Shown here piece by piece: positions 21,182 through 26,352 of a stretch of DNA of 64,000 nt; positions within the stretch are counted from its first letter, which is position 1; each line of letters begins with the position of its first letter. Made by a program: the position numbers and the translations under genes. The stretch covers positions 1 through 64,000 of the forward strand of contig JAJZIJ010000006.1 of NCBI GenBank assembly GCA_021810625.1, given 5' to 3'. The notes beneath the pieces are model-generated. The model did no database searches. It saw only the letters and a program-made list of their open reading frames with translations, and had not been told where the DNA came from. The DNA comes from Acidobacteriota bacterium. Lineage in GTDB: Bacteria; Acidobacteriota; Terriglobia; Terriglobales; Acidobacteriaceae.

Positions 21182-21508
21182 ATGCAGCGGAGGAAAATTC
21201 TTTTGAGTGTAGGGTTGAGCCTGATTCTGGGGCTGACGGCTTTTTCGCCGATGCTTGCCGCAAGCGATACCACGACGCAGAGCAACCCCACCTCAACACG
21301 ACACGCCAAGGCGAATCTGATCGACATCAACACCGCCAGTGCCGCCCAGTTGCAGGCCATTCCCGGCATGGGCGAGGTGTATGCGAAGCGCATCATTGGA
21401 GGTCGCCCCTACACTTCAAAGCGGCAACTGCTGACTCGTGGCATTCTGCCGCAGGATGCGTATGACAAGGTGAAGAGTCAGATCATCGCCCATCGCATCA
21501 AAAAGTAG
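21182..21508 (+). CDS. Secreted helix-hairpin-helix (ComEA-like) protein
   Basis: 108 aa from the ATG at 21182, with GGAGGAG upstream. A signal peptide (about residues 1-28, LLSVGLSLILGLTAFSPMLAA) and a short linker precede one double HhH domain: LIDINTASAAQLQAIPGMG and then YTSKRQLLTRGILPQDAYDKV. This matches the DNA-binding end of the competence protein ComEA. It could bind DNA in the periplasm during uptake, but no other competence genes are near. In many acidobacteria such proteins occur alone. Confidence 0.85.
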   Translation: MQRRKILLSVGLSLILGLTAFSPMLAASDTTTQSNPTSTRHAKANLIDINTASAAQLQAIPGMGEVYAKRIIGGRPYTSKRQLLTRGILPQDAYDKVKSQIIAHRIKK

Positions 21509-21595
21509 TCCTGCAATTGAGTCGTCCGGGCTGGCCTGCATCCGGGCTGGCCTGCGTTCGGGATGACATTTTTTCTGTTGCGCCATATAATTTCG

Positions 21596-21770
21596 ACAGC
21601 CTCCGGTGTTCGGGAAGCGCGGTGCGAGTCCGCCACTACCCCGTAACTGTAAGCGTGGAGGGTTGGGAACAGGCCAATATGGCAGCCACTGGAAGCAGAT
21701 TGTAAGGCTTCCGGGAAGGCGTTCCCGCCCGTTGATACGCAAGTCAGGAGACCGGCCAGAGGTCACTTCC
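21596..21770 (+). ncRNA. Cobalamin riboswitch 1 (upstream copy)
   Basis: Contains the conserved aptamer blocks in order: GGAAGCGCGGTGCGAGTCCG, CCCCGTAACTGTAAGCG, GCCACTGG, GGGAAGGCG and AAGTCAGGAGACCGGCC (the B12 box region near 21741). About 170 nt separate it from the second copy. No full gene directly follows it; a 20-codon frame begins at 21771. It can act as a second B12 sensor for the receptor gene at 22136. Boundaries are approximate. Confidence 0.9.
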
Positions 21771-21833
21771 ATGCAGTCTTCGGTTCCGATGGGAGGGCCG
21801 GGGAGCGCGTTTGCTCTGCTGCGTTCGCAGTAG
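21771..21833 (+). other. Possible 20-codon leader ORF after riboswitch 1
   Basis: ATG at 21771 with AGAGG about 7 nt before it encodes MQSSVPMGGPGSAFALLRSQ and stops at 21833. The stop falls in a hairpin (21814-21835, 9-10 bp) that could be part of an expression platform. It may be chance; there is no homology to judge by. Confidence 0.3.
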
Positions 21834-21937
21834 AGGGTCGCAGCGATGCACTGTTATTCCCGTTATGTTTGCTTCCTGAAATCTGTCGCCGGAGGATTGC
21901 AGCCGGGGCCGGAGTTGCGGGAGCAGTTTACTTTGAA

Positions 21938-22116
21938 CCGCAGAGTGTTCGGGAAGCGCGGTGCAAATCCGCCACTACCCCGTAACTGTAAGCGCGGAGA
22001 GCTGGACAAGCCATGTTTGACAGACATGTGCAGCCACTGGAGGCATTCCGAATGTGCTTCTGGGAAGGTGTCCCTGCCCGTCGATGCGCAAGTCAGGAGA
22101 CCGGCTCTGCGATGCA
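21938..22116 (+). ncRNA. Cobalamin riboswitch 2 (proximal copy)
   Basis: Repeats the same blocks as the first element: GTGTTCGGGAAGCGCGGTGC, CCGCCACTACCCCGTAACTG, CAGCCACTGG, GGGAAGGTG and AAGTCAGGAGACCGGC. The aptamer ends about 20 nt before the receptor start, and the ribosome-binding site (GAGGGGGA, 22123-22130) follows directly, which fits control of translation initiation by B12. Confidence 0.93.
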
Positions 22117-22135
22117 CGATCCGAGGGGGATTTTT

Positions 22136-24619
22136 ATGTCACGTTTCTTTGCATTGAACTTTACACGCTTATTTTTTGTTGTCGCTCTGTTGTATCTGGC
22201 ATCGCCGATATGCGCAGCCCAATCCGCCGTGCGTGGCACGGTAACAGACCCTTTGGGCGCAGCCGTCTCGCACGCCCGCGTGGAGCTTGTAACTCTGAAC
22301 GCAAGCCAGGTCGTCGCATTCACCTATACCGATGACCGGGGAATGTATGCCCTTACGACGGCCCAGCCCGGACGCTATGCGGTACGCGTGATCGCAAGCG
22401 GATTCAACCCAACGTACAGCCATGAACTCTATGTCTCCGCCGCAGCGCCAGCGTATCAGGACATGATAATGCAGATGGGCAGTCTGGCCCAGAATGTAAC
22501 CGTCACAGCGAACGGGATGCCCACGCCACAGTCGCAGACCAGCGCATCGGTAACGGTGCTGGATCCGACGCTCTATCTGCACACGCAGGATATTCAGGAC
22601 ATGCTGCGGCTGGTCGATGGCTTGCAGTTTTCCACTACGGGACAGCGCGGCGCGCAGACATCTCTATTTGAGCTGGGCGGAAACTCCGACGCCACAGACG
22701 TGATGCTGGACGGCATTCCGATCAACGACATTGGCGGCGCGGTCAATTTTGCCTATCTGTCGTCGAATGGCATCAACGGAGTGGAAATTTTTCGCGGGCC
22801 AGACAGCTCCTTGTACGGCGCGGGAGCATCCGCAGGCATTATCAATTTGACAACAACACGCGGAACCACGCCGAGGCCGCTGCTTACCTACATGATTGAC
22901 GGTGGAAATTTCGGCACCTATCGGCAGGAGGGTTCGCTGGGCGGCGTGCGCAACCGCGCCGATTACTATGCGGACTTCGCCCGCTTCGATACCGGCAACA
23001 GCTACCCCAACAGCAGCTTCCACAATGGCACCTTCGCGGGAAATTTCGGATACGCCCTCACGCCGCATATGCACATGCGCGCCACGGTGCGTCGCGTAGC
23101 CGCAGCCAGCGGAGAGCCAAACGCGCTGCTGTTCTATGGCATTCCCGATTCGCAAAATCTGGCCGAGCATGATCTTTACGGCAGCGTGACGCTGGAAGAG
23201 CAGCACTCTGCCGCAATGCATATACAGGCGCAGTACGGCTTGGTGCGGCTGCGCTCGCTCAACACCGATCCCTACCCGGTAGGGCTGCTGGTCAACAATC
23301 CCAACGCGGTCAACAACTGCGGCATCACGCAGGAGTATTTGGGATTGCCGGTCACCATCAAAGGCGGAAATGGTTACTCCGCCAGCGGCCAGGCGTTTTA
23401 TAACTGCCCAAATTTTACCTTTCCCGGCACGTACAGCATCCTGACCAATCGCGACGCATTTTATGGCGAATCAGATTACACGGTCAACCCTAAGCTGGTT
23501 CTGCTTGGCTCCTTCCACTATGAATCGGAGCGCGGCGATACGGCCTACGACTACGTTCCGCAGTTTGCGGATCGCGGCAACTTTGACTACATCATGCAGG
23601 CATCTGGAAATCTGGGCAGTCGTTTCTACTACAACGGCGGTACCGATCTGGCCGACTACTCCGTTTTTGGATTTGCTCCAACTCCACGAGCCAGTGTTGC
23701 GTATTATCTGAGAAAGCCATCGTCGTCTGGCTGGCTAACAGGAACAAAGGCTCGCCTCAACTACGCGCAGGGCATTCTGGAACCAACGATTGCCGAGCAG
23801 CGTGGCTCCATCTACGGCGTGCTGGCCTCATTGCCCAACGGACAGCAGTTGATCGCGCAAGATGGCATCACCCCCGTCGGCGCACAGACGACACGCACCT
23901 ATCAAGGGGGCATGGATCAGCAACTCTTCAGCAGTAAAGCGATGCTGCACGCCGGATATTTCCATAATGAATTCGGCAATCAGATTGAATTTGTCGATGC
24001 GCCCGCGCTGCTGCAACTCGGTGTTCCCCCTGCGGCAGAGCAGACGATTGCCTCCACCTCCTTTGGCGCGTACATCAATTCGCTTAGCTTCAGCGCGCAA
24101 GGATTTGAAAGCAGCATGAACTACCACATCACCAACAACATGTACGCGCGCGGTGGCTACACCTACACGCACGCTGTCGTGCAGCGATCCTTCTCCAGCG
24201 ACAATATGTCTCCTTCCACCAACCCGAATATCCCCAACGTTCCAATTGGAGCGTATTCGCCGCTGGTGGGACAGCGTCCCTTCCGTCGCGCTCCGCAGAA
24301 TGGGTTCTTCTCCTTCACCTACGCGCATCCAAAATGGTATGGCACGGTAACAGCAACCATCATGGGGCGGCGCGACGACAGCACATTCCTGCTGGATGCC
24401 AATGGCGGCAATACGCTGTTACTACCCAACCATAACCTTGACCCTGGCTATCAGAACTTTGGTTTCTCCGGCAGCTATCAGATCAGCCATCGCATCTATG
24501 GCTACACCATAATGGATAACCTGCTCAGCCAGCACTACCAGCAGGTGATTGGATATCCCGCGCTGCCGTTTAATTTCCGCGCAGGCATGGAAGTTTCGCT
24601 GGGCGGATTAAGACAGTAG
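22136..24619 (+). CDS. B12-regulated TonB-dependent outer-membrane receptor with CarO-like N-terminus
   Basis: 827 aa from the ATG at 22136, with GAGGGGG 6 nt upstream; the longer frame from 22013 lies in riboswitch RNA. Signal peptide 1-28, carboxypeptidase-regulatory-like domain about 30-115 (AVRGTVTDPLGAAVSHARVE), plug domain about 135-240 (VMLDGIPINDIGGAVN, VEIFRGPDSSLYGAGASAGI) and a large beta-barrel ending in an aromatic-rich strand. The cobalamin riboswitches make corrinoid uptake (BtuB-like role) the likely function. The CarO-like domain is typical of Acidobacteria and Bacteroidetes receptors and is not found in E. coli BtuB. TonB, BtuCDF and other B12 genes are not in the window. 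Confidence 0.9.
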   Translation: MSRFFALNFTRLFFVVALLYLASPICAAQSAVRGTVTDPLGAAVSHARVELVTLNASQVVAFTYTDDRGMYALTTAQPGRYAVRVIASGFNPTYSHELYVSAAAPAYQDMIMQMGSLAQNVTVTANGMPTPQSQTSASVTVLDPTLYLHTQDIQDMLRLVDGLQFSTTGQRGAQTSLFELGGNSDATDVMLDGIPINDIGGAVNFAYLSSNGINGVEIFRGPDSSLYGAGASAGIINLTTTRGTTPRPLLTYMIDGGNFGTYRQEGSLGGVRNRADYYADFARFDTGNSYPNSSFHNGTFAGNFGYALTPHMHMRATVRRVAAASGEPNALLFYGIPDSQNLAEHDLYGSVTLEEQHSAAMHIQAQYGLVRLRSLNTDPYPVGLLVNNPNAVNNCGITQEYLGLPVTIKGGNGYSASGQAFYNCPNFTFPGTYSILTNRDAFYGESDYTVNPKLVLLGSFHYESERGDTAYDYVPQFADRGNFDYIMQASGNLGSRFYYNGGTDLADYSVFGFAPTPRASVAYYLRKPSSSGWLTGTKARLNYAQGILEPTIAEQRGSIYGVLASLPNGQQLIAQDGITPVGAQTTRTYQGGMDQQLFSSKAMLHAGYFHNEFGNQIEFVDAPALLQLGVPPAAEQTIASTSFGAYINSLSFSAQGFESSMNYHITNNMYARGGYTYTHAVVQRSFSSDNMSPSTNPNIPNVPIGAYSPLVGQRPFRRAPQNGFFSFTYAHPKWYGTVTATIMGRRDDSTFLLDANGGNTLLLPNHNLDPGYQNFGFSGSYQISHRIYGYTIMDNLLSQHYQQVIGYPALPFNFRAGMEVSLGGLRQ

Positions 24620-24690: not shown

Positions 24691-24755
24691 CGACACTCCC
24701 AGAATGATTCGACGGCCCATTCAAGCCAAAAGAAGGCTTGAATGGAGCACCCGCT

Positions 24756-24808
24756 AGGAATATTTTTCCTAAAACTGCTTCCCAATCCAGATATGGATCG
24801 TCCACCAC
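24756..24808 (+). repeat. Second dispersed element, copy A
   Basis: 53 nt matching 29737-29789 at 46 of 53 positions; the shared core is CCAGATATGGATCGT. It lies about 40 nt before the kelch lipoprotein start, so it may carry part of that gene's 5' leader or promoter. Origin unknown. Confidence 0.6.
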
Positions 24809-24849
24809 CCGTAGTTTCCAATATCTACGAGTTACATGAGGTGTTTTAC

Positions 24850-26352
24850 ATGTTCGCGTCGCGTCTTTCTTTCAAGAAAGGGTCTGCCGCGCTGTTGGGC
24901 TTGCCTGTGATCTTCGCTCTCTCGATTCCCCTTCTCCTCACAGCCTGTGGCGGGAAGGCAAGCAGCACGCCCGGTTCCACGTCCGGTTCCACGCCCACGC
25001 CCGGCGCCGCCAGCCGATGGACATGGATGGGCGGCAACAATGCGCCGGGTGCGTCGGGCGTGTATGGTACGCAAGGGGTTCCCTCTACCAGCAATGTTCC
25101 CGGAGGTCGGTTCGGTTCTGTCAGTTGGCAGGACAGCAGCGGCGACTTCTGGCTCTTTGGGGGTATGGTGGTTAACATGCCGGGCGGAGTGACGGCATAC
25201 TACCTCAACGACCTCTGGGAACTCAATCCCGCGACCAAGGAATGGACTTGGATGAGCGGCAGCAAGAATGCGAATGCACCCGGTGTATATGGCACGCTGG
25301 GTACCGCCGCCGCCAGCAATGTTCCCGGAGGCCGATCAAGTTCTTTTGCCAGTTGGACAGACCGCAGCGGCAATTTCTGGCTCTTTGGAGGCTACGGCGT
25401 TGATTCGACTGGAACACTGGGCAATCTCAACGACCTTTGGGAGTTTAATCCCACGAACAAAGCATGGACTTGGATGGGCGGCAGCAATACTGCGAATGCA
25501 AAGGGCGTTTATGGCACGCTGGGCACCCCTGCCGCCAGCAATGTTCCCGGAGGCCGGACAGGTTCCGTCAGTTGGATCGACAGCAGCGGCAACTTCTGGC
25601 TCTTCGGCGGCGGCTTTATTTCGACCACCGGAACGAGCGACACGCTCAACGATCTTTGGGAGTTTAATCCTACGAACAAAGAATGGACTTGGATGAGCGG
25701 TAGCAATACTGCGAATGCAACCAGTGTATGTGGCACGCTGGGTACCGCCGCCGCCAGCAATGTTCCCGGAGGCCGGGCAGGTTCCGTCAGTTGGATCGAC
25801 AGCAGCGGCAACTTCTGGCTATTCGGAGGCAGCTACCCTGACTCGACCGGCGCGTACAGCTTCCTCAACGATCTCTGGGAGTTCAATCCCGCGACCAAGG
25901 AATGGACTTGGATGAGCGGTAGCAATACTGCGAATGCAACCGGTGTATATGGCACGCTGGGTACCGCCGCCGCCAGCAATGTTCCCGGAGGTCGGTTCGG
26001 TTCTGTCAGTTGGATCGACAGCAGTGGCAATCTCTGGCTCTTTGGTGGCGGCGGCTTTGATTCAACCGGAACCAGCGGCCAGCTCAACGATCTCTGGGAG
26101 TTCAATCCCACAACTAGGGAGTGGACTTGGGTAAGCGGTGCCAGCACTGTGGGTGGGGGTTATGCTCAACCCGGTGTCTACGGCACGCTCGATACCCTTG
26201 CTCCCGGCAATGTTCCCGGAGGCCGACAGAATTCTGTCAGTTGGATCGACAGCAGCGGCAACCTTTGGCTCTTTGGAGGCTACGGCGCTGGTTCGATCAA
26301 CGACACGCCCAGGTTCGGCGAGCTTAACGATCTCTGGCGCTACCAGCCATAG
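24850..26352 (+). CDS. Kelch-repeat lipoprotein
   Basis: 500 aa from the ATG at 24850, where the signal peptide begins (MFASRLSFKKGSAALLG). It ends in a lipobox LTACGG, then a Gly/Ser/Thr/Pro linker. Six kelch-type blades follow, each with NVPGGRxGSVSWIDSSGN, FWLFGG and LNDLWEFNP, about 73-77 residues per unit. Together they should form one beta-propeller on the cell surface. Sugar or protein binding is common for kelch propellers, but no ligand can be deduced. The gene is flanked by dispersed repeats on both sides and ends in a strong hairpin. Confidence 0.85.
   Translation: MFASRLSFKKGSAALLGLPVIFALSIPLLLTACGGKASSTPGSTSGSTPTPGAASRWTWMGGNNAPGASGVYGTQGVPSTSNVPGGRFGSVSWQDSSGDFWLFGGMVVNMPGGVTAYYLNDLWELNPATKEWTWMSGSKNANAPGVYGTLGTAAASNVPGGRSSSFASWTDRSGNFWLFGGYGVDSTGTLGNLNDLWEFNPTNKAWTWMGGSNTANAKGVYGTLGTPAASNVPGGRTGSVSWIDSSGNFWLFGGGFISTTGTSDTLNDLWEFNPTNKEWTWMSGSNTANATSVCGTLGTAAASNVPGGRAGSVSWIDSSGNFWLFGGSYPDSTGAYSFLNDLWEFNPATKEWTWMSGSNTANATGVYGTLGTAAASNVPGGRFGSVSWIDSSGNLWLFGGGGFDSTGTSGQLNDLWEFNPTTREWTWVSGASTVGGGYAQPGVYGTLDTLAPGNVPGGRQNSVSWIDSSGNLWLFGGYGAGSINDTPRFGELNDLWRYQP
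25091..26340 (+). repeat. Six tandem 219-231 nt repeats inside the kelch gene
   Basis: The start of the shared block (GCAATGTTCCCGGAGG) recurs at 25091, 25316, 25538, 25757, 25976 and 26207. Units are highly similar at the DNA level as well as in protein, with the middle four closest, so they arose by recent internal duplication and copy number may vary between strains. Confidence 0.85.

Follow-up and report, generated by a model that had tools for sequence, protein, structure and literature searches.

Tandem riboswitches for AdoCbl have been described in some number: 26 doublets have been catalogued, pseudo-cooperative pairs have been told apart from bi-mechanism pairs, and sharper control has been put forward for doublets that share a ligand (PMC9481103, 2022). 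Acidobacteria are not mentioned in a 2025 survey of contiguous riboswitches (PMC12452182), and a term search of both papers, covering open-access literature only, found no mention of tandem-riboswitch origin by duplication or gene loss (PMC9481103; PMC12452182). The origins of tandem riboswitches are rarely traced; relatives of the bacterium described here preserve many steps, from a full cob operon through a shortened operon to an adjacent pair of riboswitches.

The doublet analyzed here lies in a 64,000-nt stretch of DNA (the window) from a bacterium of the Acidobacteriaceae (Table 1). Like the same-ligand (pseudo-cooperative) tandem AdoCbl riboswitches, it consists of two complete aptamers, each with a putative expression platform, no gene between them and one gene downstream; unlike those, it has no intrinsic terminator after copy 1, contains two kinds of platform and has an origin that is probably traceable to loss of intervening genes (PMC9481103). 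With the bi-mechanism tandems of the SAM-II/SAM-V type it shares one ligand sensed by two switches that probably act at different steps, but here both aptamers belong to one family and we only infer the mechanism of copy 1 (PMC9481103). The single RF00174 riboswitches before btuB-like receptors resemble copy 2 in aptamer, in the platform by the ribosome-binding site and in target, and differ from the present locus in lacking the additional complete riboswitch of the cobU-operon type upstream. The reading that we favor, at a probability of roughly 0.8, is that the doublet represents two B12 OFF-riboswitches arranged in series on the receptor mRNA and formed by operon collapse.

Table 1. Features of the doublet locus (window coordinates)
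Feature	Position	Strand	Description
Predicted sigma-70 promoter	21563–21591	+	ATGACA-17-TATAAT, 11/12
Aptamer copy 1	21587–21774	+	RF00174 Cobalamin, 95.0 bits, E 2.3e-22, model 1-189/189
Hairpin b (P13-like), copy-1 expression platform	21777–21804	+	9-bp stem 21777-21785/21796-21804, loop CCGAUGGGAG
Linker hairpin f	21814–21835	+	CUCUGCUGC-GUUC-GCAGUAGAG, z -4.4
Conserved element d	21856–21862	+	AUUCCCG, complementary to UGGGA of the hairpin-b loop
Aptamer copy 2	21926–22123	+	RF00174 Cobalamin, 89.5 bits, E 8.2e-21, model 1-189/189
Hairpin c, copy-2 expression platform	22119–22131	+	AUCC-GAGGG-GGAU, holds the Shine-Dalgarno sequence GAGGGGG (22123-22129)
TonB-dependent receptor	22136–24619	+	827 aa, start ATG 22136; Pfam CarboxypepD_reg + Plug

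An earlier note on this DNA had proposed two complete aptamers in series and named a covariance-model search as a check. When the whole window was searched against all Rfam (cmscan), exactly two cobalamin riboswitches and no other RNA family were found at the gathering threshold; both match RF00174 over the full model and pass its gathering score of 31.5 bits, bearing out the proposal. The same holds for the single receptor gene after the pair and for its ribosome-binding site directly after copy 2. The conserved blocks are nearly identical, as described there, but the whole aptamers are only 74% identical. The copies are 151 nt apart, measured between Rfam ends, and the genome (2.45 Mb, 99% complete) has no further cobalamin riboswitch.

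Both aptamers are predicted to lie on one transcript. One sigma-70-like promoter was found, against 0.2 expected in shuffles, and other doublets have TTGAC(N) boxes at the equivalent position upstream of copy 1. As the predicted promoter ends at 21591, the transcript is expected to start at about 21598, in the first P1 strand of copy 1. No second promoter was found from there to the receptor gene (checked up to 22300) and no intrinsic terminator in 21400–22300, in agreement with a separate scan. The 5' UTR thus holds two complete aptamers of the same class with no intervening ORF apart from a 20-codon frame in the linker (21772–21834); compared by eye, neither this nor other small frames were conserved between genera as a leader peptide. 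The global fold of the 573-nt leader is no more stable than that of shuffles (z -0.85), an uninformative result. The doublet is not an assembly artefact, as it recurs in another species of the genus (G001) and in further genera. Plasmid records contained no similar DNA. A short direct repeat, CCGGGCTGGCCTGC (21527–21556), lies directly upstream of the promoter and was not seen at that place in the sister species.

Both putative platforms are conserved and covarying. Hairpin c is 98.5% paired, with a core of CC-GAGG-GG and outer pairs that covary (double changes at two pairs). Since this hairpin contains the purine-rich Shine-Dalgarno sequence of the receptor gene, copy 2 probably blocks translation initiation: with plentiful B12, copy 2 would close and ribosome binding would be blocked at GAGGGGG. 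Hairpin b begins directly 3' of copy 1 and has a loop of about 10 nt with a conserved UGGGAG, ending in GGGAG. Among 14 distinct sequences, 6 of the 7 pairs in the stem have changed on both sides, and pairing is kept in 99% of cells. A covariance model consisting of the B12 box and hairpin b (R1) matches the window at 69 bits, and the platform is class-wide, being found in other families of the class as well.

Downstream of hairpin b, UCCC is present in 66 of 73 leaders with this hairpin (b-leaders), mostly as UCCCG and 46–67 nt past the loop. The potential pairing of loop and UCCCG covaries slightly (A-U for U.G in G087, G226 and G149; C-G in G015) and is mismatched in some other leaders. A terminator-like site occurs in only 5 of 59 b-leaders. 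Copy 1 would act on the shared transcript before copy 2 does and would use hairpin b, the UGGGA loop of which can pair with the downstream UCCCG. Because it has neither an intrinsic terminator nor a gene right behind it, copy 1 most likely reduces how often RNA polymerase passes, through Rho or by pausing, or alters folding of the linker; with moderate to low confidence, the loop–UCCCG pairing is regarded as its candidate switching element, acting on elongation of the transcript or on how the linker folds. The joint effect of two OFF-switches for one ligand would be a tighter or steeper shut-off of the receptor by B12; the sharper control suggested in the earlier note may apply. At the site of linker hairpin f, the sister species also has a hairpin, with changed pairs. 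A kissing loop between L5 and L13 was considered and rejected: the native L5 performed no better than shuffled L5 (397 of 500 shuffles scored as high), and no covariation was seen.

In relatives, the two platforms belong to different genes, hairpin b standing before cobU and hairpin c before the receptor; in the other genera with a doublet, too, copy 1 carries hairpin b and copy 2 carries hairpin c. Strong R1 matches number 91, in 85 of 398 Acidobacteriaceae genomes, and such a match lies within 300 nt upstream of cobU in 48 of the 56 cobU-bearing genomes of the family. The most complete arrangement is riboswitch(b)-cobU-cbiA/cobB-btuF-riboswitch(c)-receptor, followed in several genomes by btuC-btuD. 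The distance from the b-type riboswitch to the next forms a graded series: about 3130 nt with cobU-cbiA-btuF between them, 2226–2714 nt, 1827 nt with cobU-btuF, 1424 nt in G126 with a cobU remnant and btuF, about 930 nt with cobU alone, 592 nt, and finally 294–360 nt for doublets. The broken cobU of G126 (L068, G126:C444, ~130–420) aligns with only the first 72 positions of a 168-position profile, and the same assembly has a separate, intact cobU elsewhere; the shortened gene between hairpin b and btuF is likely an intermediate of the collapse. CobU was found in none of 17 doublet genomes, searched anywhere in the genome, vs 50 of 68 other b-type genomes (Fisher 1.4e-8, with species that are not independent). 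A FecCD (BtuC-type) permease is absent in 9 of the 11 doublet genomes tested; G201 has a full-length protein and G023 a weak match. Another layout with two riboswitches also exists in the family, namely divergent cobalamin riboswitch pairs that share one intergenic region (L061 of G214, and G288, G241 and G289).

The ancestor would have been one operon with a promoter, riboswitch(b), cobU, cbiA/cobB, btuF, riboswitch(c) and the receptor gene, extended in some lineages by btuC-btuD. Loss of cobU-cbiA-btuF would have left the first riboswitch, which kept the only promoter, about 150 nt before the second. Parsimony and the G126 remnant argue for loss, rather than insertion, of cob genes. In the receptor tree, doublets are scattered over four distinct positions between operon bearers (g1+g16+g70, including the window; g23; G226; G325+G390), suggesting that doublets arose independently about four times.

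A local tandem duplication, in which a single riboswitch ahead of the receptor gene was duplicated on the spot into two equal copies, would account for the near-identity of the conserved core blocks. In the AU test on a smaller, aptamer-only set, within-genus grouping of the copies is not rejected (p 0.31), an outcome that is expected because the alignment has only about 170 columns. Since a genus-level duplication is compatible with the aptamer sequences taken by themselves, the argument on origin rests on platforms and gene order. There, the two platforms differ and each matches another gene context in relatives; furthermore, in the larger aptamer tree, copy 1 of the window clusters with the first copies of other genera and not with its own copy 2, and the two copies are only 74% identical. 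Duplication is largely refuted by these results and is considered very improbable. A division of labor by ligand, in which the copies would sense different corrinoids such as adenosyl- vs methyl- or hydroxocobalamin, was raised by the earlier note as two-input control and could be read from the divergent arms and from the L5 loops, which differ between the copies (UGCGAGU and UGCAAAU). However, UGCAAAU is present in both copies of G001, cobalamin riboswitches are broadly corrinoid-sensitive (PMC9600662), and no AqCbl tandems were found in the earlier catalogue (PMC9481103). Because the best full-model match of both copies is RF00174, and not two ligand classes, a two-input logic gate is unsupported, and this explanation is given hardly any weight.

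Collapse of an operon might also have left copy 1 as a functionless relic, with the receptor regulated by copy 2 only; the former target genes of copy 1 are gone, and neither an ORF nor a terminator follows it. Against this, the linker drifts whereas copy 1 and hairpin b stay conserved. In between-genome comparisons, identity is 71–100% for copy 1, 67–100% for hairpin b, 56–98% for copy 2 and 55–96% for receptor coding DNA, so that copy 1, hairpin b and copy 2 are usually at least as conserved as the coding DNA; the remaining linker, at 34–95%, falls below both copies in every comparison. The only promoter, moreover, belongs to copy 1, and decay in genus g23 affects copy 2 rather than copy 1: copy 2 of G105 and G178 (L044, L045) scores 47 bits and is without the CCACUG...GGGAAGG arm, with hairpin c and the receptor kept, and in G140 and G160 copy 2 is missing, leaving a single aptamer with hairpins b and c, in that order, behind it. 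Given the conservation of hairpin b and of both aptamers, a relic status for copy 1 is improbable. The state of copy 2 in g23 indicates that two copies are not always needed and that one- and two-switch forms are both viable. In L054 (G078:C70:33134-33400), copy 2 has an internal insertion or rearrangement and reaches only 32 bits.

Beyond the preferred reading of two serial OFF-switches left by operon collapse, a wider proposal is offered tentatively: gene loss between same-ligand switches might be a recurrent route to tandem riboswitches, the product being selected as a two-step B12 shut-off with an undescribed copy-1 platform, in which UGGGA of the P13 loop would pair alternatively with UCCCG and no intrinsic terminator is present. 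With about four independent lineages and preserved steps, the family allows a test of whether serial switches add function or are tolerated leftovers. The copy-1 platform, being class-wide and without an intrinsic terminator, is a good place to seek another mode of action of cobalamin riboswitches.

The receptor itself has BtuB as its closest PDB matches. Its best NCBIfam match, TIGR01779 (TonB-B12), is partial, being limited to the plug region and below the cut-off (77.6 vs 599.7 bits). As this score is far under the BtuB-type cut-off, the name B12 receptor is based on the riboswitch and on the neighbors cobU, btuF and btuCD in relatives, which make import of B12 by the receptor probable. The genome of the window keeps the B12-dependent methionine synthase MetH and the B12-binding radical-SAM protein HpnJ, and neither CobU nor a FecCD permease was found in it, so the organism probably depends on taking up B12 from outside. 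Downstream of the receptor gene, at 24742–26352, lies a lipoprotein-like ORF made up of highly similar Kelch repeats.
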